64,000 nt of DNA from Deefgea salmonis (GTDB taxonomy: Bacteria; Pseudomonadota; Gammaproteobacteria; Burkholderiales; Chitinibacteraceae): contig NZ_JAJAWG010000012.1 in assembly GCF_020531905.1 (NCBI RefSeq), positions 1-64,000 on the forward strand, given 5' to 3'. Below, piece after piece: positions 5,904 through 46,880 of this stretch; positions within the stretch are counted from its first letter, which is position 1; each line of letters opens with the position of its first letter. The translations under genes were made by a program, and so were the position numbers. The notes beneath the pieces are model-generated. The model saw only the letters and a program-made list of their open reading frames with translations, had not been told where the DNA came from and did no database searches.

Positions 5904-6926
5904 ATGGCAAAAACGGCACTGATTATTAGCGGCGGCGCACCGAATGCAACGCTGGTGGCTGGCGCTTTAGAGGCCTTTCATGAGCTTGGCCTGCAATTTG
6001 ATGTGATCTCCACGGCGGGAGCAGGTGCTTTGCTAGGGTTGATGTATTTGGCCCCCAAAAACGCCGACCCAGTTAAAACATTACGTGGCTTACAGGAAAT
6101 GGGGATTGCCGATTTTTTATATCGCGCTTTTCCCGTTAATTTTAAAGTCTTTAATAAACCCGGCAATATGGCCGATGGCTACCGGCAAATGACGGCGCCT
6201 TTGCAAGCCATGTTGGCGCAATGGCAGCCGCAAGATCCTTTGTCGCAAACGCTCAAAGACGCCACCCAGCTGGGCATTGCGAGTGGATGTCCAAGTGATG
6301 TGAATACGCGCTCTTTAGGCTTGTGTGCACACGCGCCTTTTGTGGAAGACGTGATTGATTTTGCACGCTTGCAACAGCCGGGAACGGATATCTGGGTGAA
6401 TGCGTATAACCTGAGTCAGCATGAAATGGCCAATTGGCCACGGCAAAAAATCGGCGTGCAGCAATTGCAGGCGGCGCTATCGTTTCCATTGCTCTATGCG
6501 CCGACCGAGATTGACGGCGATTTTTATATGGAAGGCGCGGCGATTGATTGTTTGAACTTTAAAGATTTGCGTAAAAACTATCCCGAGCTGGAAGAAATCG
6601 TTATTTTTGATCTGCTTGGCGCCGAAAAACTATTGCGTAAACCCAAAGATTTGTACGACGCGTGGGTGATGTCGATCATCACGCCCTTGGTTGAGATTGC
6701 GCGCGATGACGTTAAAATTTTTGAGGCGCTACATGGCGAAGGAATTACTTTGCACAAAGTACCTTTGCTCGAAGCCGTACCGCATGAAGCTTTACCGGAT
6801 GTGTTTGATTGGTCGCGCAGTAATTTAACGCGCTTGTATCAACTGGGCTATCACACCGCTAAAGCTTACGCTCAACAACACTTAACGCATTTGTATGCAG
6901 TTCAAGCACAGTGCGATTTGGTTTGA
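5904..6926 (+). CDS. Patatin-like protein lacking the catalytic dyad
   Basis: The 340-aa product has the patatin phospholipase scaffold: an oxyanion-loop-like SGGAPN at 9-14, the nucleophile-elbow region ISTAGAGALLG at 35-45, and the second-motif region FYMEGAAID at 207-215. In active patatins the elbow reads GTSAG and the second motif DGG/DGA. Here the serine position is Gly39 and the aspartate is Glu210, so lipase activity is doubtful. I chose the ATG at 5904 because GGAG precedes it; the upstream frame extension has no such site. It is not a frameshifted pseudogene, so it may have a binding or structural role. Confidence 0.8.
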   Translation: MAKTALIISGGAPNATLVAGALEAFHELGLQFDVISTAGAGALLGLMYLAPKNADPVKTLRGLQEMGIADFLYRAFPVNFKVFNKPGNMADGYRQMTAPLQAMLAQWQPQDPLSQTLKDATQLGIASGCPSDVNTRSLGLCAHAPFVEDVIDFARLQQPGTDIWVNAYNLSQHEMANWPRQKIGVQQLQAALSFPLLYAPTEIDGDFYMEGAAIDCLNFKDLRKNYPELEEIVIFDLLGAEKLLRKPKDLYDAWVMSIITPLVEIARDDVKIFEALHGEGITLHKVPLLEAVPHEALPDVFDWSRSNLTRLYQLGYHTAKAYAQQHLTHLYAVQAQCDLV

Positions 6927-7076
6927 TGGACGCTGGGCGCGACTTCGTTCGTTTGAATCCGCGCAGGTGCGGCGCACCTTAAACGTTAATCGGGTTTTGT
7001 CGGCGATGTTTAAATGGTGATTTGCGGAGTGATGTTAAACCATCCATATCAAGTCTAAATAGATAAAAATAATCGT

Positions 7077-7125
7077 GGGTATATGAATCTAAGCCTTATT
7101 AATCAAAGCTTGTAATTAAATACCT
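7077..7125. repeat. 49-nt palindromic repeat, copy 3
   Basis: Ends are GGGTAT and ATACCT, inner arms AAGCCTT/AAAGCTT. It lies in the 308-base gap between the patatin-like and TraB genes; I see no gene in that gap. Confidence 0.75.
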
Positions 7126-7234
7126 GTTATTTTATGCAAACACCTACTGGCTGCAGGCCGCACCGCAGTATGCTGCAAAAGCAGATGCAGTGATTGTTTT
7201 CTAAACGGCATATACCGGTACTGAAGGAAATTTG

Positions 7235-8161
7235 ATGGCGATGAGACGTTGGGGTGGCTTGCTCTGCATAGTGCTGTTTAGTTCGCTATTGCATGCTGAA
7301 TGTTTGCCGCCGCCCATTGCGCCGAGCGCGAGTGAGCTGCAAAAACTGCAGGCGGCGGCGAAAGACCAAGGGTTTTTGTGGAAAATCAGCAAAGACGGCC
7401 ATGATTCGTGGTTGTATGGCACGATTCATGTCAATGCTTTGGCTGGGTTTTTTCCGGGGCCCAAGGTTAAACAAGCACTGCAGCGCAGCAGTATTTTGGC
7501 TTTAGAGCTGGATTTAAGCGATGCCAAAACGCAGGTGGAGCTGGCTCAATGGGCGCGAATGGGCGCCGGTCAAGTTCCCGCTCATTTACAGTCGCGGTTG
7601 GACGCCCAGTTGGCGCAAGTTTGTTTACCTGCGAGCATGGCGCAGACGATGCATCCGGCTTTGCTGTTGATGAGCATTGGCGTGCTGGGTTTGCGGCCAT
7701 TGGGTTTAGAGGCTGAATATGGTTCCGAGCCGATGTTGCTGGGTTTGGCGCAGGCTGGGCAGCAAAAAATTCTAGGATTAGAAACCGCGGCGATACAGAT
7801 GCAGGCTTTATTGGGGACAGACTCAGCGGTGAGTGCCGAGGATTATGAGCTGGCCTTGCAGCAATTAGAAAGTCAGGAAGATCAGGCGATTGCATTAAAG
7901 TTGGTCAAACTGTGGGCTGACTCGGATTTGACGACCTTAGCGCAGTATGAACAGTGGTGTTGTAACCATGCTCCAAAGCAAGAAGCCGATATGCTGCGCT
8001 TACTGGATGAGCGCAATCCGGGTTTGGCCAATGGGATTACACAATTACATCGTGAAGGCGCTAGTATTTTTGCTGCTGTAGGTAGCTTGCATATGGTGGG
8101 CAAAAATAGCTTGTTATTTTTATTGGCCAAGCAAGGCTTTAAAATTGAGCGGATTCATTGA
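7235..8161 (+). CDS. TraB/GumN family protein, secreted
   Basis: A 308-aa protein of the TraB/GumN (TIKI-like) family, thought to be metallohydrolases. The N terminus looks like a signal peptide (about 1-22, ending LLHAEC). Two conserved GxxH-type motifs are visible: YGTIHV near residue 60 and AVGSLHMVG near 285. The ATG at 7235 follows AAGGA with good spacing; an in-frame TTG precedes it and another ATG follows. The stop codon region overlaps the convergent methyltransferase gene by seven bases. Substrate unknown. Confidence 0.85.
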   Translation: MAMRRWGGLLCIVLFSSLLHAECLPPPIAPSASELQKLQAAAKDQGFLWKISKDGHDSWLYGTIHVNALAGFFPGPKVKQALQRSSILALELDLSDAKTQVELAQWARMGAGQVPAHLQSRLDAQLAQVCLPASMAQTMHPALLLMSIGVLGLRPLGLEAEYGSEPMLLGLAQAGQQKILGLETAAIQMQALLGTDSAVSAEDYELALQQLESQEDQAIALKLVKLWADSDLTTLAQYEQWCCNHAPKQEADMLRLLDERNPGLANGITQLHREGASIFAAVGSLHMVGKNSLLFLLAKQGFKIERIH

Positions 8162-9105
8162 GCTTTTCTTTGAAATACCCAAACCCCAGCGCCAAGCTCT
8201 GGCGGCAGCACTAATTGGCTTAAATCACGGCGTTCTTGCCAGTCAAATGCCGATTGCGCCTGATATTCGTCCCAATTGCCGGTAATAAAGCGCGAGCGGC
8301 TGCCGATGACAATATAGGTTTGCACTTCGCGCTGACGAAAAATCTGTTTTTCAAAGGTATTCCCCGCCGGTGGCCAGCAGCATACAACCACTTTGCTTGG
8401 AAAGCGTTTAAGCGCAGCACTGGCATCCAGTTGTAATACGTCAGCCGGATAATCGACGACTTGTCGCCAGCTAAAGTCATCACAAGCGGTGATGTCGACG
8501 TGGTGTTGGCGTAAAAATCGGCTTAAAGTGCCGTCGCCAGCGGCGATTTCAAGGCAGGGTTGCTGACCAATCAGTTGGGCTAAACCGGCAATGAGCTCTT
8601 GGCTGTAAAAACAATAAATCCCGCGTTTAGCGACCAGAGGCATTAATAAATGCTTTTGACTAATCAGCGGCCAAGTCCATTTAAAGCGCTGCATCGATAC
8701 CGGTTTGCGAACTAAATCGCGCTCAAATAATAAGCGCTGGGCAATCAAGCCATTCCATAAATTAAACCGAACCTTGCCTTGGCTAACGCCAGTGGCCACT
8801 GAAAAAGCATATTGGCGCAACGCCAGCTCGATTAAGCGTTGCCGTTCTTGTTGGCTGACGAGCTCAGCAAAAGCCCGGCCGTGTCGCTCGCCGGATAAAA
8901 AATGCGCGTGGTAATCGATGCGAGTGCTCGATTGGCGAATGAGGGCTTTGATTTCTGCAGCATCTTGCCGGGCAAAAACGCCTTCCAGTTCCTCGCGAAC
9001 CGCCTGCCATTGCGCGGGACAGGCGGCACAGAGTTGGCTAAAGCTTGGATTTTGCTGCAAAAACAGCAAACGTTGTTCTGGGCTGATTGGCGTTTTAATA
9101 GACAT
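8155..9105 (-). CDS. SAM-dependent methyltransferase-like protein
   Basis: About 316 aa. The C-terminal half has a class I methyltransferase motif I (CLEIAAGDGTLSRFL) and a post-IV-like segment (VVVCCWPPAGNTFE). The N-terminal half is helical and of unknown role. The target is not evident. I prefer the ATG at 9105; the frame is open to 9159, which would overlap the promoter of the divergent DUF924 gene. Neither start has a strong ribosome site. Confidence 0.7.
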   Translation of the reverse strand: MSIKTPISPEQRLLFLQQNPSFSQLCAACPAQWQAVREELEGVFARQDAAEIKALIRQSSTRIDYHAHFLSGERHGRAFAELVSQQERQRLIELALRQYAFSVATGVSQGKVRFNLWNGLIAQRLLFERDLVRKPVSMQRFKWTWPLISQKHLLMPLVAKRGIYCFYSQELIAGLAQLIGQQPCLEIAAGDGTLSRFLRQHHVDITACDDFSWRQVVDYPADVLQLDASAALKRFPSKVVVCCWPPAGNTFEKQIFRQREVQTYIVIGSRSRFITGNWDEYQAQSAFDWQERRDLSQLVLPPELGAGVWVFQRKAQ

Positions 9106-29296: not shown

Positions 29297-30856
29297 ATGA
29301 GCGACGCGATAGCGACAACTAGCAGTGAAATTTATCTGGACGCCAATGCCACCACGCCGATTTTACCGGCGGCGCAAGCGGCGATGATACGGGTGCTCAG
29401 CGATAATTTTGGTAATCCGGGCAGTCCGCACGGCGCGGGGATTCGGGCGCGAATTGAGCTCGACCGCGCCCGCACTGCCGTGGCGGCGGTGCTGCAATTG
29501 CCTGCGAACAGTTTGATTTTTACTTCTGGCGCGACTGAAGGCATCCAAACTGCGGTGTTATCCGTACTGCATCCGCAGCGTGGCGCGGCTTCGCTGCGGG
29601 TGTTATACGGGGCCACTGAGCATAAAGCCGTTCCCGAAGCGCTGGCGCATTGGGGCGAAATTTTGGGCCTCACGCTGGAATTGCTGCCGATTCCGGTTGA
29701 TCAACACGGTCGACATGATTTGCCTTGGCTGGCTGAAAACGCCAAGGATGCCACCTTGGTGTGTACCATGGCGGCCAATAATGAAACCGGTGCGATTAGC
29801 GATTTAGCTGGCATTGCCCGTGTGCTCGATGCGCTGCCAGTGCGGCCCTTATGGTTGGTTGATGGCGTGCAGGCTTTGGGCAAATTGGCCGTCGATTGGC
29901 TGGGCTTGCGAATTGATTATGCTCCGTTCTCAGGGCATAAACTGCACGCCCCCAAGGGCATTGGCTTGCTGTATGTACGCGCCGGTGCGCCGTTTACGCG
30001 GTTATTGGCCGGTGGCGGGCAAGAAGGCAATGCGCGCTGTGGTACTGAAAACCTACCCGGCATTGCGGCATTGGGGGCCGTATGTGAAGCCATATTGGCG
30101 GGGCAGTGGCAAGCTGACGCGTTGGCGTTGGCGCATCAGCGCCTAAAAACCGCGCTGCTACACGCCTTTCCTTCGCTGGTGATGAATAGTCCTTCCCAGC
30201 ACTGTTTACCCACGACGATTAATTTTTCTTTACTCGGCATTCCCAGCAAATGCGTACTCGATTTATTTGACTCGCTGGGTTTACGGCTGAGCGCGGGCTC
30301 GGCGTGCAACAGCAAAAACGCCAAACCGAGCTTTGTATTAATGGCGATGGGCTTAGGTGAAGCGCGTGCCTCCAGCGCGATTCGTTTATCGATTTCGCCC
30401 AACGTCTGTGCTGCCGATATCGACGCCGCTATCGAGCGAATCGCCCTTGCTGGACAAATTTTGCAAACGCATCTGGACGACATGCTGCAGCTGGAACAAG
30501 TGGCGTTGCCAGACGAAAACCTTGAACTCTCTAGCCGCTATGCCGTTACCGCCGAGCAACTTCCGGCGTGGCAGGCTGTGTATCCAAAGGGGGTATTGGT
30601 CGACATCCGTGAACACTGGGAGCAAATCGCTACAGGCGCTTATCCGGTGGGGATGATGATTGAGCATCATTCATTAAGCCAATTACCGCGCTGGCTTGGT
30701 TGTCTTGCACTCGATCGGCCGCTGTTACTTGCTTGCCGCAGTGGTCGGCGCAGCGGGCAACTACTCAGCCTGATGCGTGCTAAAGGCTACACGCAAATCT
30801 GGCATTTGGCCGATGGTCTGGCGGGATTGCCGATGCCGAGCGCAGTCGAGCAATGA
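29297..30856 (+). CDS. Cysteine desulfurase-rhodanese fusion
   Basis: A 519-aa fusion. Residues 1-385 form a class V PLP cysteine desulfurase (NifS/IscS group): YLDANATTP, SGATEGIQ, K215 in SGHKLHAPKG, and an active-loop Cys337 in GSACNSK. A rhodanese domain (about 415-515) follows, with Cys480 in the loop CRSGRRS. The pair could take sulfur from cysteine as persulfide and relay it within one chain. AAGGTGAG precedes the ATG. It stands alone, without iscU or similar genes. Confidence 0.9.
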   Translation: MSDAIATTSSEIYLDANATTPILPAAQAAMIRVLSDNFGNPGSPHGAGIRARIELDRARTAVAAVLQLPANSLIFTSGATEGIQTAVLSVLHPQRGAASLRVLYGATEHKAVPEALAHWGEILGLTLELLPIPVDQHGRHDLPWLAENAKDATLVCTMAANNETGAISDLAGIARVLDALPVRPLWLVDGVQALGKLAVDWLGLRIDYAPFSGHKLHAPKGIGLLYVRAGAPFTRLLAGGGQEGNARCGTENLPGIAALGAVCEAILAGQWQADALALAHQRLKTALLHAFPSLVMNSPSQHCLPTTINFSLLGIPSKCVLDLFDSLGLRLSAGSACNSKNAKPSFVLMAMGLGEARASSAIRLSISPNVCAADIDAAIERIALAGQILQTHLDDMLQLEQVALPDENLELSSRYAVTAEQLPAWQAVYPKGVLVDIREHWEQIATGAYPVGMMIEHHSLSQLPRWLGCLALDRPLLLACRSGRRSGQLLSLMRAKGYTQIWHLADGLAGLPMPSAVEQ

Positions 30857-33476: not shown

Positions 33477-33507
33477 AATAGGTTTCCATTCATGGTGAGC
33501 ATGTCAA
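33477..33507 (-). promoter_or_regulatory. Second, weaker MerR-type promoter-like copy
   Basis: Reading the minus strand: TTGACA, 19 bases containing CCAT-GA-ATGG, then CCTATT. It aligns with the promoter at 37177-37207 with a few indels, in the same orientation, on the other side of the operon. The -10 is poor; it may be a decayed duplicate. Confidence 0.4.
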
Positions 33508-33525
33508 GTTATAAATGGAAACCTA
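33479..33525 (-). repeat. 12-bp inverted repeat, possible operon terminator
   Basis: TAGGTTTCCATT and AATGGAAACCTA are perfectly complementary and separated by 23 bases. It begins six bases after the aminotransferase stop codon. It lacks a clear T run, so it may be a terminator or a boundary mark. Confidence 0.5.
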
Positions 33526-33530
33526 ATTCG

Positions 33531-34895
33531 TTATGCTGCAATATTTAATTTGAGAATTGCTTCTCGAAGTCTTGGAATCGTTGCTGCGATTTGTTCTGGC
33601 GCGATAGTACAAATAGCCGCTCGAAACCAATTATCTGCTTCAATTGAAGTTGTACCAAAACTAGTAAATGGAACTATCGCAATTCCTGCCTGATCGATAA
33701 AATACAAACTAATATCTTTTGCAGTTTTTATTTTTTTTCCATTCGGCATCACCTTGTTTTTTAGATCAAAATTAATAGAGATATAAATACCAGCCATTGG
33801 CAGCATAGAGTCAACGGGCAAGCCTTCTTGCTTCATAGTCTGAATTGCCGTATGAAGTACAAGCATAGAATTAAGTATTTTGTTTTTAAATAAATGTAAA
33901 TAATCTAGAAGATATTTATCATTTTTTAATAAAGCTGCCATTGCTAGTTGCTCTGCTTTAGGCGCTATTGCGCCGATATGTTCTATCATTAATTTCATTT
34001 TATTAATGACTAATTTTGGTCCCATCGCCCAACCAACTCTAATGCCTGTCGCGGCAAAAGATTTTGAGCCACCATCAATAACGATCAAATAATCTTTTAT
34101 TTCAGGGCAAAGTGAAGCGGGGTTGTAATGCTCAGCATTCTGCGTCAGCATCCAATATATCTGATCATAAATAAGGTACAATGGCTTCTCAGAATACATT
34201 AAACGCCTTTTGTTTTCATAAATGACTAAATCACATATTTCTTTCAAAACTTGCTTGGAAAACATGGTACCGACGGGATTCTGTGGGGAGCATAGCGACA
34301 ATACGCGAGCTTTTTTTAATGAAAAGCTAAGATCACGGGCCGTTGGTAAAAAGTGATTCGCTAATGATGTCTGTATGGCCATCGATTTGGCACCACACAT
34401 TTTTGCATAGTACATATTATTCCAAGATGGTGCTGGATAAACTACCAATTCACTAGGACTCACTAAGCTTAATAATGCTGCATACAATAAAGGCCGTGCG
34501 CCACCTGATATAATTATTTCGCCAGATGGATCGTAATCGACATTAAAATTTTTACGCGTCAATTTTGCGATTTCTTCGCGTAATGAATATACACCCTCTA
34601 GTGGTGGATAATCATTATGCCTTGCTTCATACGCGTTCTGGATTTCTTGCCGTAGAAATGCAGGAATAGGAAACTGAGTCGTATCAAAATCACCAATAAT
34701 CAAATCACAAATTTCTTTCCCTTTGGCAATTTGCTCTTGCACATAAAATTCAAGCTGAATTATTTCAGAATAATCCAATTCGTTCGCCAAATTAGATAAT
34801 TTATTTTTCTCAGTCGACGCAATTGAAAATTTTGTTTCCGCTGATAAGCTTGAATAAATCGTGTCGGTTTTATTCAATAAAGAATCAATAAACAT
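33531..34895 (-). CDS. PLP-dependent class I/II aminotransferase
   Basis: A 454-aa fold-type I enzyme. Key residues: the SPQNPVGT motif with N206, D244 in LIYDQIY, the Schiff-base K278 in GGSKSFAATGIR, R286, and a likely carboxylate-binding Arg in WFRAAI. About 60 N-terminal residues come before the usual domain start. The substrate amino acid is not evident. Third gene of an AT-rich operon; its AGGA ribosome site overlaps the stop of the cysteine desulfurase gene eight bases upstream, so the two are coupled. Confidence 0.88.
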   Translation of the reverse strand: MFIDSLLNKTDTIYSSLSAETKFSIASTEKNKLSNLANELDYSEIIQLEFYVQEQIAKGKEICDLIIGDFDTTQFPIPAFLRQEIQNAYEARHNDYPPLEGVYSLREEIAKLTRKNFNVDYDPSGEIIISGGARPLLYAALLSLVSPSELVVYPAPSWNNMYYAKMCGAKSMAIQTSLANHFLPTARDLSFSLKKARVLSLCSPQNPVGTMFSKQVLKEICDLVIYENKRRLMYSEKPLYLIYDQIYWMLTQNAEHYNPASLCPEIKDYLIVIDGGSKSFAATGIRVGWAMGPKLVINKMKLMIEHIGAIAPKAEQLAMAALLKNDKYLLDYLHLFKNKILNSMLVLHTAIQTMKQEGLPVDSMLPMAGIYISINFDLKNKVMPNGKKIKTAKDISLYFIDQAGIAIVPFTSFGTTSIEADNWFRAAICTIAPEQIAATIPRLREAILKLNIAA

Positions 34896-34903
34896 TTTAT
34901 ATC

Positions 34904-36109
34904 CTACTCATAACTTAAATGAGGAGCTGTCATACGTAAAACTCTTTTTACTTCTGCTAACGTAAAATCAATTTCTTGATCGGTAGTTTTTTTTCCTAAG
35001 CTAAAACGAATAGTGGCTTGTGCCAAATCATCGGGCAAACCGATCGCTGCCAATACATGGCTAGGAGATAAGCTACTTGAAGAACACGCAGAGCCAGTAC
35101 TCACAGATATACTTTTTTTCAACATGCTGAGAAGTTTTTTTCCATCGGTATTTTTGAATGAAATGTTGCTTACATGGGGTAGCCTAGAATCTGTACATCC
35201 ATTAATTTGTACATTGTTTAATATGGATAATTCTTGCTCTAATTTATTGCGCTGTTGGGCAATACGTTCTAATTCGCCATTTTTTAAGGCTAGACAAGCT
35301 ATTTCAGCTGCTTTACCAAAACCGACAATTCCCGGTACATTCAACGTGCCCCCCCTCATTCCTTGTTCACTACCTCCGCCAGTAATCTGAGGTAATAGAT
35401 CAACCACTCTTTTACCTTGTTGATTCCGTAAATACAGCGCACCTACACCTTTGGGGCCATAAATCTTATGTGCAGAACAAGTCAGAATATCAATTGGGCA
35501 TTGCTGTAAATCAATATGAATTTTACCCAGTGCTTGAGTGGCGTCGGACATAAATAAAATATCATTTTTTTGAGCAATAGCGGCAATTTCATGTATAGGA
35601 TTAATCGTCCCTAATTCATTATTTGCATACATCACAGTAATTAGAATTGTTTCATTGGTAATTAATTCTTTTAGTCGTTCAATATCAAAACTGCCATCTG
35701 GTAATGGATCAATATAAGAAATTCTAGCTCCTTTGCACTCTAAATCTTTTAACGTCATTAAGATGGATGGGTGTTCTATTGATGAAGTGATAATATGCTT
35801 GCCTTTGTTCTTGCAAGCACGAAAGACCCCTCTAATTCCTAAGTTATTACTTTCTGTCGCGCCTGAAGTAAAAACTATCTCTTTCGGCTGCCCACCAATT
35901 GAATGAGCGAGTTGTGCTCTCGCCTGTTCTACCGCTTGGTATGCATTCCATCCATGCAGACCAAACATACTGGCAGCATTGCCAAAAGTAGTACAAAAAT
36001 AAGGTAACATCGCTTCTAAAACAGCTTCATCACAAGGCGTGGTCGCATTGTAATCAAGATAAATAGGTAAATTTAGTTTTTCGGTATTCGAATTACCTAG
36101 CAAAGACAT
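34904..36109 (-). CDS. Cysteine desulfurase (NifS/IscS family)
   Basis: A 401-aa class V PLP enzyme that should remove sulfur from cysteine as a persulfide. It shows YLDYNATTP, TSGATESNN, SSIEHPS, the aspartate in MSDATQALG, K215 in SAHKIYGPKG, and the catalytic Cys342 in STGSACSSSS on a flexible loop. It is not next to iscR/iscU or suf genes, so a dedicated pathway is more likely than general Fe-S assembly. TAGGAG precedes the ATG. Middle gene of the AT-rich operon and a second desulfurase besides the fusion at 29297. Confidence 0.93.
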   Translation of the reverse strand: MSLLGNSNTEKLNLPIYLDYNATTPCDEAVLEAMLPYFCTTFGNAASMFGLHGWNAYQAVEQARAQLAHSIGGQPKEIVFTSGATESNNLGIRGVFRACKNKGKHIITSSIEHPSILMTLKDLECKGARISYIDPLPDGSFDIERLKELITNETILITVMYANNELGTINPIHEIAAIAQKNDILFMSDATQALGKIHIDLQQCPIDILTCSAHKIYGPKGVGALYLRNQQGKRVVDLLPQITGGGSEQGMRGGTLNVPGIVGFGKAAEIACLALKNGELERIAQQRNKLEQELSILNNVQINGCTDSRLPHVSNISFKNTDGKKLLSMLKKSISVSTGSACSSSSLSPSHVLAAIGLPDDLAQATIRFSLGKKTTDQEIDFTLAEVKRVLRMTAPHLSYE

Positions 36110-36164
36110 TTTAACGCTCCTAAATTAATTTATTTTAAATTTATGCACTGAGATAAAATGGTTT

Positions 36165-37025
36165 TTAAAAAATCTCAGATAAATCCATTTCAAAATTGCT
36201 CATGGTTTTCAATACATAATTCTCATGATCAAAATCCGACAAGAAAACATTGCTAATTTTAACTAGACTATGGTTTGTTTGTTCGCGCTGTAAAAATAAT
36301 TTTAACCCCACCTCTGTCCCAGTAATTACTTTGTTGTAATCTTCTGTTTCTGAAAAATCAATAATGTGGAAAGCATTAGTGTGTGGGTTTAGTTTTGATA
36401 TCTTTTGATAAGTATCTTTGTAATGCTGGGCCATAATTAGTGGGCATTTAGCAGTCCAAATATCTTTCATTTTTGATTCGGCCAAAGTTATTTTCTGACC
36501 TTGTTCATTTTTAAAAATAATTTTTTTAAGGCCTGAGGTTTCTTCGATCGACAGTTCTGGATAAAGATGCATCGAATTAGCAATTATTTTTCTTAAGGCT
36601 TGCAAACCGCGATTCTTGCAATTGCGCTCACCTTGAAGTAGCAATTTATCACGCTTCACAATACTGTATTGTGCTAGTACGTTTTCTAATTCATTTGGCA
36701 GTTTTTCAGGTTCAATGGATTCCACATTAGCGAGGGGAATGGAAATGTCACACACTTCGGCTCCGCACTGCAAACCCAAATCATCAATTAATACACCAAG
36801 TACAACCTTTAATTTTTTTTTATGTTGAACAATTGAATTGTTGGCAATCCGTAATACTTTATGCAAAGATTCAATTGAAAATTCTGTGATTGGGTAACGT
36901 GGATCATAATGTCCACCCTCTAAATAAAAAGCCGAGACGATGGGATAATTAATATTGACATCATCATGAATCATTTTTAGTAAAACACGCTCTACATTCC
37001 CGACTAACTTTTCTGTTAATTGCAT
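36165..37025 (-). CDS. Unrecognised protein, first gene of AT-rich operon
   Basis: A 286-aa protein of no family I know. It has no signal peptide or membrane helix and is rich in Lys, Glu, Ile and Asn. Notable points: LEGGHYDPRYP near 35-45, a predicted alpha/beta core (KLKVVLGVLIDDLGLQCGAEVC, 70-96), a CKNRG segment near 135, and KCPLIMAQHYKD near 195. Cysteines at about 91 and 96 could bind a metal. The AGAGGT ribosome site is strong. It leads an operon with a cysteine desulfurase and an aminotransferase, so it may be the pathway-specific enzyme or carrier. Confidence 0.75.
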   Translation of the reverse strand: MQLTEKLVGNVERVLLKMIHDDVNINYPIVSAFYLEGGHYDPRYPITEFSIESLHKVLRIANNSIVQHKKKLKVVLGVLIDDLGLQCGAEVCDISIPLANVESIEPEKLPNELENVLAQYSIVKRDKLLLQGERNCKNRGLQALRKIIANSMHLYPELSIEETSGLKKIIFKNEQGQKITLAESKMKDIWTAKCPLIMAQHYKDTYQKISKLNPHTNAFHIIDFSETEDYNKVITGTEVGLKLFLQREQTNHSLVKISNVFLSDFDHENYVLKTMSNFEMDLSEIF

Positions 37026-37176
37026 TTATCGACCTCTAGATTTTCAATTAAAAATTGATAAGTAATGTTATTTGAGGCTTAAGTCATCACAGTGCGATCA
37101 GCATTTATTTTGATAAAGCTTGACCCGCTGTAATGTGCTTTCTTAATGGTTACGTGAAAGTAACACGAGCATGGAG

Positions 37177-37207
37177 ATACTAGGGTTTACCATTATGGTA
37201 ATGTCAA
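37177..37207 (-). promoter_or_regulatory. MerR-family-type promoter of the AT-rich operon
   Basis: Reading the minus strand: -35 TTGACA (37207-37202), a 19-base spacer, and -10 TAGTAT (37182-37177). The spacer holds the 7-1-7 palindrome TTACCAT-A-ATGGTAA at 37187-37201. Over-long 19-base spacing with a central dyad is the hallmark of promoters untwisted by MerR-family activators (CueR, ZntR, SoxR). Transcription would run into the operon starting at 37025. Confidence 0.75.
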
Positions 37208-37676: not shown

Positions 37677-37707
37677 TTGACTTTCCCACTATGACAGCCT
37701 GCATAGT
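37677..37707 (+). promoter_or_regulatory. CueR-type promoter of copZ-copA
   Basis: TTGACT, a spacer of exactly 19 bases, and CATAGT, with the dyad CACTATG/CATAGTG overlapping the spacer and -10. It lies 42 bases before the copZ start. The 19-base gap and the cueR gene downstream support MerR-type activation by copper. Confidence 0.6.
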
Positions 37708-37748
37708 GAATTTACGGTCAATTGATCGGCATAATAAAGGAAGCCCCA

Positions 37749-37946
37749 ATGTATAGCCTTAAAGTTGAAAAATTAACGTGTAGCAGATGCGTCACCAAAA
37801 TTAATAATGCGCTGAAGTCTGTTGACGATAGCGCTGAAATTGTCATTGATCTTGCGCTTAGTCAGCTTCAAATTACCACTAATGCGTCGCTGGAAGCCGT
37901 GAGAGCATCACTTTTAAATATGGGTTATCCAACCACCGTCCTCTAA
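37749..37946 (+). CDS. copZ: Copper chaperone CopZ-like (HMA domain)
   Basis: A 65-aa heavy-metal-associated domain: a beta-alpha-beta-beta-alpha-beta pattern with the metal motif LTCSRCV (CxxC) near residues 10-13. It should carry Cu(I) to CopA, encoded about 100 bases downstream. AAGGA precedes the ATG at 37749. Its CxxC reads CSRC rather than the commoner CASC. Confidence 0.88.
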   Translation: MYSLKVEKLTCSRCVTKINNALKSVDDSAEIVIDLALSQLQITTNASLEAVRASLLNMGYPTTVL

Positions 37947-38044
37947 GTATCACTAGCCGCTAAGCGCTTCAGATCGGCGCGCTTAGCATGCACTCGCCAG
38001 TTAGCGCTTGACCTTGCCGCAATGGGAAGGTTGAAACTACCGCC

Positions 38045-40504
38045 ATGATGACTATGGAAGGAACCGCAACAATGACCCCATCTGCCTTAGTAATGAGTTC
38101 GAATCGATTATTAAAATTTGATATTGATGGTATGAGCTGCGCTAGCTGCGTTTCTCATATTGAGAATGTGCTACGCAATACGCCTGGCGTCGTGAATGCC
38201 AATGTTAATTTGGCCATGGAAAATGCCCAAGTTACTTTGCAAGATGGCCACTCTGAGGCCAGCATACTCGCCGCAGTGAATGCGGCAGGTTATCAGGCAA
38301 GGCAAGTGAATGCCTTAGCAGATACTGAAGTTAAAATGAATATTCAGGGCATGAGCTGCGCCAGTTGTGTTGCCCATATTGAAAGTGTGCTGCTCGCTAG
38401 CCACGGCGTTGTTTCGGCCGCAGTGAATTTAGCCACAGAAACCGCCCAAGTGGTATTAAAAGCCGGGGTCGCTCCCAGCACTTTATTGGATGCCATTGCA
38501 GCAGCAGGCTATAAAGCCAGCCTAGTTCTTGCCAACAGCCCCGCCCCCGCTCGTGAATCAGCGCCAGCGCTATGGCCGATCTGGCTTGGTGCCTTATTAT
38601 CTTTGCCACTGGTTTTACCCATGCTGTTGGAACCCTTCGGTTTTCATCACTGGGCATTGGCAGCGTGGATACAATTTTTACTCGCCACCCCTGTGCAGTT
38701 TGGCTTGGGGGCTCGATTTTATCGCTCGGCATGGCAAGCGGTACGAAATCGCCGTGGCAATATGGACTTATTGGTTGCCCTTGGCACCAGTGCTGCCTAT
38801 GGGCTTTCGGTTTATCACTGGTTATTTGAGTCATCGACTGGGAGTCCGGGCGCTTTGTATTTTGAAGCCTCTTCCGTCATTGTGACCTTGGTGTTATTGG
38901 GTAAATGGTTGGAATCACGCGCCAAACAAGAAACCACCGCCGCCATTCGAGCGCTGCAGGCATTACGTCCAGCCACTGCGCGATTGCGCCAAGCCGATGG
39001 TCAGACGATTGAAGTTGCATTAGAACAGCTGCGCTTAGGGGATCTGGTGCTTATTTTACCTGGCGAGCAAGTGCCAGTTGATGGCGTAGTGCGTGAAGGT
39101 CAAAGCGAGCAAGACGAATCGATGCTCACCGGAGAAAGCATCCTGATCAACAAAGAAATCGGGAGCAAAGTCACCGGCGGAGCCATTAACCATGATGGTG
39201 TCTTGCTGGTAGCAACCACGGCCTTGAGTACGGAAAGTACGCTGTCGAATATTATTCGCATGGTGGAAGATGCTCAGGCGGGTAAGGCGCAAATTCAGCG
39301 TCTTGTCGATCAGGTTAGCGCTGTTTTTGTTCCGGTGGTGCTGGTGCTAGCATTGATGACTTGCTTGGGGTGGTGGTATTGGGGCGGCCAACTAGAAACC
39401 GGCATTGTGTATGCCGTTGCCGTGTTGGTGATTGCATGCCCTTGTGCTTTGGGCTTAGCAACCCCCACCGCGATTATGGTAGGAACGGGGGTGGCGGCCA
39501 AATTTGGCATCTTGATCAAAGATGCAGCCGCTTTAGAGTTGGCGCATAAAGTCGATGTGGTGGTGTTTGATAAAACAGGCACTTTAACGCAAGGCAAGCC
39601 TAGTCTTGTGCAGCTGATTGCACTCGACAACGACCAAACTCGGCTATTGGAGCTTGCCGCGGCATTGCAACGCGGTAGCGAGCACCCATTAGCGCAAGCG
39701 GTTCTTGCCAAAGCTGACGAGCAGCAACGCTTCAAAGCAGAAAACATTCAAGCCTTACCTGGCCGCGGTATTGCTGGAGAGATTCTCGGGACGCAGTATT
39801 TACTGGGTAATCAAAGACTGATGCAAGAGCATCACGTTGATACTGCGGCCATGCAGCAAGCACACCGGCAAGCGCAGGCGAACGGCCAGACCGTATCATG
39901 GTTAGTGGCGCAAAATGAGGCGCAAAGTCCTAAGCTCATCGGCATGCTGGCCTTTAGTGATCAGCTAAAAAGCACCGCCAAAGACGCGATCATTCAACTT
40001 CGCGCTTTGCAGGTAAAAACGGTGATGTTATCGGGAGACAATCGAGCCGCAGCATTACGGGTTGCCGAACAATTGGGCATTGATGAAGTGATTGCCGAGG
40101 TTTTACCACAAGAAAAAGCCCTGCATATCGAAGCGATACGCGCTCGGGGTCACGTTGTGGCGATGGTTGGGGATGGCGTGAACGATGCACCTGCACTCGC
40201 TGCTGCCGATGTTGGTATCGCGATGGGAACGGGAGCCGATGTTGCAATGCACGTCGCCGGTGTGACCTTGATGCGGGGTGATCCACAATTGGTCAGCCAA
40301 ACCATTGAAGTCTCGCGTCTGACCTATAGAAAAATCCGACAAAACTTGTTTTGGGCTTTTATTTTTAACACCATTGGCATTCCTTTGGCCGCATTCGGCC
40401 TGCTCAATCCAATGATTGCCGGCGGGGCAATGGCGTTTTCGAGTGTGAGTGTTGTATCCAATGCTTTGTTATTAAGACGCTGGGGCCCAAGGCGGCAAAA
40501 ATAA
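38045..40504 (+). CDS. copA: Copper-exporting P-type ATPase CopA
   Basis: An 819-aa P1B-type ATPase exporting Cu(I) from the cytoplasm. Two N-terminal HMA domains carry GMSCASC at about 29-35 and 102-108. Then come eight predicted helices, the actuator TGES (362-365), the transport CPC (465-467), the phosphorylated aspartate in DKTGT (509-513), SEHPLA, and the hinge GDGVNDAPAL. The start could also be the ATG at 38072, which has a better placed AAGGA. It forms a copZ-copA-cueR unit. Confidence 0.96.
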   Translation: MMTMEGTATMTPSALVMSSNRLLKFDIDGMSCASCVSHIENVLRNTPGVVNANVNLAMENAQVTLQDGHSEASILAAVNAAGYQARQVNALADTEVKMNIQGMSCASCVAHIESVLLASHGVVSAAVNLATETAQVVLKAGVAPSTLLDAIAAAGYKASLVLANSPAPARESAPALWPIWLGALLSLPLVLPMLLEPFGFHHWALAAWIQFLLATPVQFGLGARFYRSAWQAVRNRRGNMDLLVALGTSAAYGLSVYHWLFESSTGSPGALYFEASSVIVTLVLLGKWLESRAKQETTAAIRALQALRPATARLRQADGQTIEVALEQLRLGDLVLILPGEQVPVDGVVREGQSEQDESMLTGESILINKEIGSKVTGGAINHDGVLLVATTALSTESTLSNIIRMVEDAQAGKAQIQRLVDQVSAVFVPVVLVLALMTCLGWWYWGGQLETGIVYAVAVLVIACPCALGLATPTAIMVGTGVAAKFGILIKDAAALELAHKVDVVVFDKTGTLTQGKPSLVQLIALDNDQTRLLELAAALQRGSEHPLAQAVLAKADEQQRFKAENIQALPGRGIAGEILGTQYLLGNQRLMQEHHVDTAAMQQAHRQAQANGQTVSWLVAQNEAQSPKLIGMLAFSDQLKSTAKDAIIQLRALQVKTVMLSGDNRAAALRVAEQLGIDEVIAEVLPQEKALHIEAIRARGHVVAMVGDGVNDAPALAAADVGIAMGTGADVAMHVAGVTLMRGDPQLVSQTIEVSRLTYRKIRQNLFWAFIFNTIGIPLAAFGLLNPMIAGGAMAFSSVSVVSNALLLRRWGPRRQK

Positions 40505-40612: not shown

Positions 40613-41047
40613 ATGAATATCGGACAGGCAGCAACGCTCAGTGGTCTGAGTAGCAAAATGATTCGGCACTATGAAAGTATCGGCTTGATAAAACCGAAAG
40701 GACGCAGCGCTGCAGGCTACCGAATTTATAATGAGTTTGATCTCAGCCAACTGCGTTTTATTCATCAAACTCGGCAATTTGGCTTTTCACTAGAACAAAT
40801 TGGCCAATTACTGATGCTTTGGAACAAAGAAGATCGCGCCAGTATTGACGTAAAAAAACTCGCCGAACAACACATTCTGATGCTCAATTCAAAGATCCAA
40901 GCCATGCAGCAAATGCAAAGTACGTTGGCGCAATTTGTTGAAATTTGCCCAGCCAGTGATGATTCCAATTGCCCAATTTTAAATGCATTAGCCGGAGGGC
41001 AGTGGCATGTATCAGAGCCATGCTGCGCGCAGCATGAATTGATTTAA
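40613..41047 (+). CDS. cueR: Copper-responsive MerR regulator CueR
   Basis: A 144-aa MerR-family activator. The N-terminal winged helix reads MNIGQAATLSGLSSKMIRHYE; a dimerisation helix follows. The metal loop has Cys112 and Cys120 (CPASDDSNC), the same positions as in E. coli CueR, which senses Cu(I)/Ag(I)/Au(I). A CC pair near the C terminus is an extra. AGAGGG precedes the ATG. It should control the copZ promoter and may control the divergent AT-rich operon. Confidence 0.92.
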   Translation: MNIGQAATLSGLSSKMIRHYESIGLIKPKGRSAAGYRIYNEFDLSQLRFIHQTRQFGFSLEQIGQLLMLWNKEDRASIDVKKLAEQHILMLNSKIQAMQQMQSTLAQFVEICPASDDSNCPILNALAGGQWHVSEPCCAQHELI

Positions 41048-44845: not shown

Positions 44846-44981
44846 ATTGATTTTTGTAAATTTAGCAAACTTCAATTAATTTGCTGACTGCACACTTGCA
44901 AAAGGTATATGCTTCTAATGCGCAAAGTTGATTACTTTTTATTTTATAGCGGCATCAATCTTTACAATTTTGGAGTCAATC

Positions 44982-46880
44982 GTGGATATCGAAACATCAA
45001 ATGCAATTAGATTATTTTTTCCAAATCCGTCATTGTCTCTTGTATTTTTTGAAGCTATCGCAAATGCATTTGATGCCGATGCTACAGAAATAAAAATTGA
45101 TATAAATCTAACCTCATTTGATGTGTCAGAATCATTAAAAGTGACAATTGAGGATAATGGCAATGGTTTCACGGATGAAAATTTCGATAGATTTAAAAGT
45201 CTTCTAAAACCTAGAGACAAATATCATAAGGGAGTTGGCCGATTAGTATTTTTGAATTACTTTCATCAAGTAGAAGTAATTAGCACACTAGAAAACCAAG
45301 TGCGATCATTTGTTTTTAAAGATAAATTTGATGGCTCGTATCTAAAAAATGAAACAACCAACAAAAACAATAGAACAAAATCAACAAAATTAATTTTTAC
45401 AGGGTTCGCAAACAAACAAATAAAGTCATATGATGATATAAAACCCGATACTCTGAAAAAAAGAATAATAGAACACTTCTTACCAATGCTAAGTGAGTTC
45501 AATAGAATTGGCAAAAAATTTACTATACAAATTAACCTAGAAACGCTAGAAAGCAATGCGACAAAAGACTTCTTCACTAAAGAAACAACAATAAAACCAG
45601 AAGACTTACCTACACTTTCTGTTATTAACATAAGCAACATTGGTATTGATGCTATTTCAACAATAGAGATGCACTATCATATACAGAAAACCAAAGAAAA
45701 AAGCAATCTACTTACAGCGGTTTGTATTGATGGAAGAACAATACCAATTAATCTAATTCAAACTTCAGCGATACCTTTCGGATATTCAGTGGTATTTTTA
45801 TTTGTTTCTGATTTTTTTCATGCAAAATCAGATAGCTCTCGTCAGAAATTATCTGTTCCAGATGGCATAAACGAAAATCGACTTTACAAAATGTTTAGAA
45901 ATGAAATATCCACAGTACTTTCAAAAGAAATACCAGAAATAAACAAAGAAAACTTCAAAGTTAAAAAACAATTTGAAACAAAATTCCCCCATCTATTAGG
46001 ATACTTTGACGAAAATACTGTAGGACTTATTGATAAAGACGAAGCTCTCAACAACGCAAACCAACAACTTTTTTCAACTCAAAAAGAACTACTTCAGTGC
46101 GATAAAATGGATGATGCCACATTCAAAAAATACCTCGACATTTCATCCAGAGCCCTAACCGAATACATCCTTTATCGCGAAGGAATTATTGAGAAAATGA
46201 AAGGGATGACGGAAAGTAATTCAGAATCCGATCTGCACAATTTAATTGTTCCGAGATATCAAGAGTACAGACAAGAAAAGATGGCCAACGAAATTTACCA
46301 AAACAATGCTTGGCTACTTGATGATAAATTTATGACATTTAGAACTGTTCTCAGCGAAGCAGATATGGGGAAAGTAATTAATGCAATTAGCTTAACGGAT
46401 GATAACGTAGAAGAAAATGGAAGACCTGATATTGCAATGATTTTTTCTGCTGACCCTAATGATAAAAATCCCGTAGATGTTGTCATAGTAGAGATAAAAA
46501 AGAAGACCGACAACGAGAAGGAAAATATTTATGCAGTCAATCAGCTGCTAGACAGGGCTCAAAAATTAGTAGATTTTTGCCCTAACATTCAACGAGTTTG
46601 GTATTACGCTTTGATTCAAGTAAATGAAAATCTTTCAAATCGTTTAAGACAAATGAAGTGGGCTCCTTTATTTTCAAAAGGTAAAGTTTTTTATCAAGAA
46701 TTTGAAACATATAGAAAAGACTCAAAAATTGTTCCAACACCAACATTTATTATGTCATTTGATGCATTGGTATCAGATGCTGAATCTAGGAACCATGCAT
46801 TTTTAGAGGTACTAAGAAATACAATTAAAAAACATGTTGCCCTTAATTCGAATGCTATAGTTAGTAAATTAGAAATATAA
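44982..46880 (+). CDS. GHKL ATPase with C-terminal PD-(D/E)XK-like domain
   Basis: A 632-aa AT-rich gene. The N terminus is a GHKL (Hsp90/MutL/MORC-type) ATPase: N-box EAIANAFDADA (24-34), G1 motif EDNGNGF (57-63), and KGVGRL (83-88). A long middle region follows. Near the C terminus D483 (RPDIAM) and E504-I505-K506 (VEIKKK), with a Gln further on, fit a PD-(D/E)XK nuclease. The combination is typical of single-gene phage-defence or MORC-like proteins. The GTG at 44982 has GGAG six bases upstream; the frame continues upstream without one. Confidence 0.82.
   Translation: MDIETSNAIRLFFPNPSLSLVFFEAIANAFDADATEIKIDINLTSFDVSESLKVTIEDNGNGFTDENFDRFKSLLKPRDKYHKGVGRLVFLNYFHQVEVISTLENQVRSFVFKDKFDGSYLKNETTNKNNRTKSTKLIFTGFANKQIKSYDDIKPDTLKKRIIEHFLPMLSEFNRIGKKFTIQINLETLESNATKDFFTKETTIKPEDLPTLSVINISNIGIDAISTIEMHYHIQKTKEKSNLLTAVCIDGRTIPINLIQTSAIPFGYSVVFLFVSDFFHAKSDSSRQKLSVPDGINENRLYKMFRNEISTVLSKEIPEINKENFKVKKQFETKFPHLLGYFDENTVGLIDKDEALNNANQQLFSTQKELLQCDKMDDATFKKYLDISSRALTEYILYREGIIEKMKGMTESNSESDLHNLIVPRYQEYRQEKMANEIYQNNAWLLDDKFMTFRTVLSEADMGKVINAISLTDDNVEENGRPDIAMIFSADPNDKNPVDVVIVEIKKKTDNEKENIYAVNQLLDRAQKLVDFCPNIQRVWYYALIQVNENLSNRLRQMKWAPLFSKGKVFYQEFETYRKDSKIVPTPTFIMSFDALVSDAESRNHAFLEVLRNTIKKHVALNSNAIVSKLEI

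Follow-up and report, generated by a model that had tools for sequence, protein, structure and literature searches.

Bacterial copper defence has mostly been described in terms of pumps, chaperones and oxidases, and to our knowledge there is one case of a CueR-controlled enzyme operon that builds a sulfur-based copper ligand. For Pseudomonas aeruginosa, we take PA3515-3519 and flcA-E to be the same genes. Excerpts of two reports state that CueR activates PA3515-3519 in this species (PMC7922089, PMC12833586), and an excerpt of a third describes how fluopsin C is built there from cysteine by FlcA-E (PMC11363339). Here we analysed a stretch of 64,000 nucleotides of Deefgea salmonis (contig NZ_JAJAWG010000012.1, referred to as the window) in which a three-gene operon lies next to copper genes. 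The operon encodes a protein of no recognised family (P1), a cysteine desulfurase (P2) and an aminotransferase (P3). The trio has a CueR-type promoter, as copA does, and recurs beside copA in bacteria that are only distantly related. Its likely product is a sulfur-containing compound that assists cells in coping with copper.

Results

The trio spans positions 33531-37025 of the minus strand in the order P1-P2-P3 (Table 1), with a gap of 55 bases between P1 and P2 (36110-36164) and of 8 bases between P2 and P3 (34896-34903). Ribosome sites were read in the sequence 5' of P1 (AGAGGT), P2 (AGGAG) and P3 (AGGAT), and the operon is divergent from the plus-strand genes copZ-copA-cueR. A preliminary description of this DNA had reported three minus-strand genes with ribosome sites and these gaps, divergent from copZ-copA-cueR and headed by a promoter with a 19-base spacer and a central dyad. 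The coordinates and sites bear out this layout, with the promoter at 37177-37207. Right downstream of P3 we observed an inverted repeat (AGGTTTCCATT...AATGGAAACCT, 33480-33524) without an obvious T-run after it, which may be a terminator or the edge of an island.

The co-occurrence of the three genes across genomes and beside copA and cueR had been set as a test, and it was found. Counting each genome once, 13 genomes carry the trio with its gene order unchanged, namely the window genome, nine Pseudoalteromonas (L002/G608, L003/G532, L004/G579, L005/G604, L008/G616, L026/G605, L027/G551, L032/G577 and L033/G578), one uncultured Saccharospirillaceae (L006), Serratia oryzae (L007/G533) and G802 (L023), the last two belonging to the Serratia oryzae family. 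Six P1 loci came from a contig scan, one more from a plasmid collection and further ones from whole-genome searches. All 13 genomes have copA adjoining the trio, and 12 of the 13 have cueR there as well; the exception is L023, whose fetched 18 kb contain no cueR. Relative to the copper genes the trio takes three arrangements (THREE ARRANGEMENTS): it is divergent from copZ-copA-cueR in the window, convergent with cueR-copA in Pseudoalteromonas and L006, and co-directional with and upstream of copZ-copA in L007 and L023, where copZ was recognised by eye. Between these arrangement groups copA is 42-49% identical. The shared part is therefore the trio, which seems to have become linked to resident copper genes on more than one occasion.

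All 13 trio genomes have a CueR-type box with a 19-bp spacer ahead of P1. In the window it reads TTGACA-TTACCATAATGGTAAACCC-TAGTAT, with the dyad TTACCAT-A-ATGGTAA in the spacer. The box is TTGACC-TTACCACCGTGGCAATCTT-TACAGT in Pseudoalteromonas, with a one-base difference in two of the nine (L005, L027), TTGACC-TTGCCACTATGGTAAACCC-TACATT in L006, TTGACC-TTCCACTTAGGTGAAGGTT-TACGTT in L007 and TTGACC-TTCCACTAGGGGGAAGGTT-TACGTT in L023. An excerpt of the published work gives the CueR signal as ACCTTCCC-(5)-TGGAAGGT and states that a 19-bp spacer is required (PMC1526738). We scored sites with a 31-position matrix trained on 10 copA/copZ-side boxes from other genomes (five from relatives of the window genome and five from trio-bearing loci), with the window boxes and all trio promoters excluded from training. 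The trio box reached 25.75 bits and ranked second in the window behind the copA box (31.0 bits); none of 20 random windows, generated as a first-order Markov background, contained a site above 23.2 bits. Eleven further copper-type loci were scanned (L002 was left out); in these the top site lay at the copper genes, and the P1 box was second in nine and third in two, behind copper-gene boxes only. A pattern made from the trio and copZ boxes of the window, which is circular for the two boxes it derives from, hit no further exact site in the 3.26-Mb genome and a single site when one mismatch was allowed. The features of a CueR regulon that are present here are thus a cueR gene and a 19-bp-spacer promoter with a CueR-type dyad. 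The CueR/MerR-type character of the promoter, as first described, is borne out by the independent matrix and by the 13 genomes, and the predicted copper control of the trio by CueR is well supported by these promoters.

For P1, nothing above chance was found in Pfam, NCBIfam, PHROGs, PADLOC or PDB sequences, and its distant members, described below, likewise had no NCBIfam match. Weak and partial similarities to ATP synthase subunit g (best solved-chain profile match, expectation value (E) 0.38) and to UPA-FIIND of Pfam (E 0.009 for one relative, 0.12 for the window's P1) were judged to be chance. The window's P1 is 52-63% identical to four aligned representatives. Across seven aligned P1 proteins the motifs YLE.GH, DDLG..C....C (C87, C92), ER..KNR, AKCP (C194) and QHY.D are invariant; C87, C92 and C194 are kept even in relatives of 26-31% identity, and C136 is conserved in the copper branch only. 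The ratio of nonsynonymous to synonymous substitution rates (dN/dS) was 0.05-0.06 for P1 in two Pseudoalteromonas pairs and ranged over 0.03-0.12 when P1, P2 and P3 were each compared in these pairs (L003 versus L004 and versus L005). These values come from six Pseudoalteromonas comparisons, three L007-L023 pairs having been dropped as saturated; the L023 P2 also contained two in-frame stops. All three trio genes evolve under constraint.

P2 matches Aminotran_5 of Pfam (2e-80) and carries the catalytic-Cys loop GSACSSS and the lysine for pyridoxal phosphate (PLP), both features of the NifS-like superfamily, and is a predicted desulfurase. Against the best NCBIfam model, that of the IscS subfamily, it scored 439 bits, under the cut-off of 548, and it stayed under the cut-off of all 25 NCBIfam models among the matches listed (65 matched). 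The genome holds an apparently complete isc operon elsewhere, recognised by eye, with its own IscS. The C-terminal tail of IscS serves IscU, and P2 ends before the tail that the genome's own IscS has. By score, C-terminal tail and isc-operon context P2 does not qualify as a housekeeping IscS. With the DndA and SspA models P2 scored 489 and 491 bits; its operon partners P1 and P3 had no match in a PADLOC scan that covered the trio proteins only, and an anti-phage role was rejected. P2 resembles the IscS, NifS, DndA and SspA desulfurases as a PLP enzyme with a catalytic-Cys loop and a PLP lysine, but it lacks the IscS tail and is partnered by P1 instead of IscU, Dnd or Ssp proteins.

P3 matches Aminotran_1_2 of Pfam (8.9e-36), and its nearest solved chains are aspartate/prephenate aminotransferases. 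The PLP-lysine motif SKSFAATGIRVGW and arginine motifs are conserved in the alignment. P3 shares near whole-length similarity and these motifs with the class I aspartate/prephenate aminotransferases, but it stays under the cut-off of all 25 NCBIfam models among the matches listed (61 matched). When P3 was compared with plasmids (47 records matched), the Pseudoalteromonas trio alone exceeded 60% identity (61%) among the matches listed, and 11 other plasmid records among them were 24.6-28.6% identical. The assignments given in the preliminary description, a first protein of no recognised family, a cysteine desulfurase and an aminotransferase, agree with these database results.

Two further genomes of the Serratia oryzae family (G662/L024 and G654/L025) hold three consecutive genes, for a distant P1, a NifS-type desulfurase and an EamA-family transporter. 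This P1 (26-31% identity) is paired with the desulfurase and the EamA transporter in both loci. The desulfurase is 36-40% identical to P2 and 39-40% identical to the IscS of the window genome, and in a small tree it did not group with P2; this tree includes the L023 P2 across the stretch with in-frame stops, so that the placement of L023 is rough. P1 is thus accompanied by a desulfurase in either branch, and the two desulfurases may have been recruited independently. The EamA-family transporter beside the distant P1 suggests a small-molecule product, if the transporter exports. In L024 the operon, together with two (iron-type) ABC-transporter (ATP-binding cassette) genes, occupies 5961-9040 between hpt and yacC-speE-speD. 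The E. coli counterpart of this site holds gcd and the copper oxidase gene cueO, neither of which was present in the fetched 18 kb of L024; the location may be a coincidence.

The trio is more AT-rich than its flanks, as had been noted before. The G+C content of its three genes is 0.34-0.38 (0.27-0.30 at third positions, GC3), compared with 0.52-0.57 (0.50-0.62) for seven larger neighbours (aroF, a NifS/rhodanese gene, a solute-binding-like gene, endonuclease I, copA, a phytase/esterase-like gene and metF); copZ has 0.41 and cueR 0.44. The window's copA shares 70-76% identity with its counterparts in six relatives, five of them congeneric and one from the same family, and no trio was found in the 16-18 kb fetched around copA in these six. 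Because it is AT-rich and absent beside copA in the six relatives, the trio was probably acquired horizontally, and its low GC3 would fit a recent acquisition. Same-genus inheritance was rejected, as P1 is absent from 149 of 149 other relatives. As for the vehicle, P1 had no match in 50,697 phage records, and none of 30 pattern stretches of viral contigs was confirmed as P1. A plasmid origin was not adopted either: 72,556 plasmid records gave one P1 match, the 1.24-Mb replicon pNC201 of Pseudoalteromonas sp. NC201, which was again the sole match of the distant P1. In five Pseudoalteromonas (L002, L026, L027, L032, L033) the contig that bears the trio is 1.19-1.29 Mb long and looks like a second replicon; that of L002 is pNC201, labelled plasmid in its record.

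Among the neighbouring genes, copA has the best CueR-type box of the window, which scores 17.4 bits if read on the opposite strand; copA may possess a separate copper-responsive promoter, and its start codon may lie further downstream than listed. The score of the copZ box was reached by 3 of 20 random windows and is therefore not above chance on the matrix alone. CueR clears its NCBIfam cut-off narrowly (147.7 versus 147.4 bits), and its translation has a CPASDDSNC loop close to the C-terminus. Besides, a second NifS-like desulfurase (29297-30856, plus strand), about 30% identical to P2, lies 2.7 kb from the trio; its C-terminal rhodanese-like stretch is just under the Pfam cut-off (E 0.0004, 21.1 bits). 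Another AT-rich stretch (44928-46880, plus strand; G+C 0.30-0.34) encodes a 650-aa protein with an HSP90/gyrase-type ATPase domain and no PADLOC match, and this gene may have been acquired.

Table 1. Genes and promoter boxes of the trio and the adjoining copper genes, with positions in the window.
Feature	Position	Strand	Description
P1	36165-37025	-	286 aa; family-less protein, first gene of the trio
P2	34904-36109	-	401 aa; IscS/NifS-type cysteine desulfurase
P3	33531-34895	-	454 aa; class I/II (aspartate-type) PLP aminotransferase
CueR-type promoter of the trio	37177-37207	-	-35 TTGACA, 19-bp spacer, -10 TAGTAT; from sequence and 25.75-bit matrix score
CueR-type box before copZ	37677-37707	+	19-bp spacer; 16.7 bits
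copZ	37722-37946	+	HMA-domain copper chaperone; HMA 1.2e-9; open reading frame from TTG, ATG at 37749
CueR-type box directly before copA	38008-38038	+	31.0 bits, best in the window
copA	38045-40504	+	Cu(I)-exporting P-type ATPase; TIGR01511 578 bits, cut-off 397
cueR	40613-41047	+	Cu(I)-responsive MerR-family activator; TIGR02044 147.7 bits

Discussion

The reading that we favour, and to which we give about an even chance, is that Cu(I)-bound CueR induces a sulfur relay from P2 to P1 which, with P3, makes a thiol- or thione-type metabolite against copper. Judging from the promoters, a rise of cytosolic Cu(I) would lead CueR, bound in the 19-bp spacer, to activate P1-P2-P3 together with copZ and copA. 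P2 would then draw sulfur off cysteine as an enzyme-bound persulfide, which is the established chemistry of its family. Because P2 lacks the IscS tail and is always found beside P1, it may pass this sulfur to P1 and not to IscU. P1 could use C87, C92 and C194 to pass the sulfur to a small substrate or insert it there, and P3 would transaminate an amino-acid precursor or intermediate. The product may be a small Cu(I)-binding thiol- or thione-type compound that buffers Cu(I) in the cytosol or exits the cell with it. Such a scheme would resemble the CueR-induced, cysteine-derived copper ligand route of P. aeruginosa with unrelated enzymes. More tentatively, and at somewhat less than an even chance, P1 would be the founder of a new sulfur-inserting family with a dedicated desulfurase, serving an unknown CueR-controlled Cu(I)-binding metabolite in the copper branch and a related exported sulfur compound in the enterobacterial branch.

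Several observations weigh against the proposed relay. No homologue of known function could be detected for P1, and the copper-type trio includes no transporter gene. In L024 and L025 neither P3 nor copA nor cueR was found in 18 kb each, and there is no CueR box, the best sites scoring 6.8 and 8.9 bits. P3 is split over two frames in G578 (L033 5407-6689) and the start of P2 is in another frame in G802 (L023 7560-7725), which could be assembly errors or decay. Moreover, the trio is rare. Whole-genome searches found P1 in 9 of 108 genomes of the Pseudoalteromonas genus and in 4 of 246 sampled from the Serratia oryzae family, two with the trio and two with the distant P1. In wider samples it was present in 1 of 398 genomes of the phylum (the window's own), in 1 of 345 of the order of Serratia oryzae and 1 of 369 of the class of Pseudoalteromonas (in each case the reference itself), and in none of 149 relatives besides the window genome. 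The rarity in these samples suggests that the benefit may be niche-specific.

The preliminary description had proposed either a sulfur-containing metal ligand or the repair of metal-damaged sulfur centres. Of these two proposals the ligand fits better, because the distant P1 occurs together with a transporter and it is hard to see what P3 would do in repair. In the repair scheme P2 would supply sulfur, P1 would be a scaffold or carrier that rebuilds iron-sulfur (Fe-S) clusters damaged by Cu(I), and P3 would support the amino-acid supply. Cu(I) does attack Fe-S enzymes, P2 is of the IscS type and P1 has three invariant cysteines; however, P1 is unlike any known scaffold family by sequence, the genome already has an isc operon, and the aminotransferase and, in the distant relatives, the transporter have no clear role, so that we consider repair unlikely. 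It is also improbable that the operon generates hydrogen sulfide or persulfide from cysteine and traps copper as copper sulfide, with P3 as a cysteine aminotransferase forming mercaptopyruvate, P2 as desulfurase and P1 as sulfurtransferase. Aspartate-type aminotransferases are able to use cysteine, P3 is of this type, and two potential cysteine-using enzymes share one copper-linked operon, but P1 has no rhodanese-type match in Pfam or NCBIfam and the pairing with a transporter is left unexplained.

That the product is a fluopsin C-like antibiotic, secreted as a copper complex, with copper as trigger and cofactor and not the stress, is very unlikely. The precedent of fluopsin C, the patchy, acquired distribution and the transporter in the distant relatives speak for such a toxic exometabolite, but the copper-type operon has no transporter or self-protection gene, the adjoining copA aside. 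A thiolation of tRNA or protein by P1 with sulfur from P2, tuning the cell under copper stress in the manner of IscS and the DndA/SspA partners, is just as doubtful, since in spite of the strong scores of P2 on the DndA and SspA models, families that feed sulfur to nucleic acids, P1 matches no Dnd, Ssp or tRNA-thiolation family and P3 and the transporter are unexplained.

Returning to a copper-binding metabolite as the product, methanobactins and bufferins are the described copper-binding modified peptides and, as far as excerpts of the literature describe them, methanobactins carry thioamides. In contrast to these systems, no MNIO-type match was found in P1-P3 or in P1 relatives (Pfam). A precursor peptide in the leader was also considered and rejected, as the leaders of six loci contain no conserved short open reading frame. 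No described system with this gene set had been known to the preliminary description, and this held for the titles and abstract openings of the literature searched, which included few subscription journals and is weak evidence of novelty.

The fluopsin C route shares with the trio a CueR-activated enzyme operon and, according to the excerpts cited above, leads cysteine sulfur into a copper ligand. The enzymes differ: the lyase FlcB, the two heme-oxygenase-like oxidases FlcE and FlcD, FlcC and the N-methyltransferase FlcA have no counterpart among the P1-P3 matches, and no fluopsin enzyme family was found in Pfam or NCBIfam in a search restricted to the trio proteins. Because no Flc enzyme is among the family matches of P1-P3, the trio is not a member of the fluopsin C pathway. 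If our reading is true, a second, unrelated enzyme set has repeatedly settled beside copper pumps, which would show that the making of a copper-handling metabolite is a recurrent strategy. The trio, with its three defined genes and a probable inducer, would then offer a way to a novel sulfur-transfer enzyme and to what it makes.

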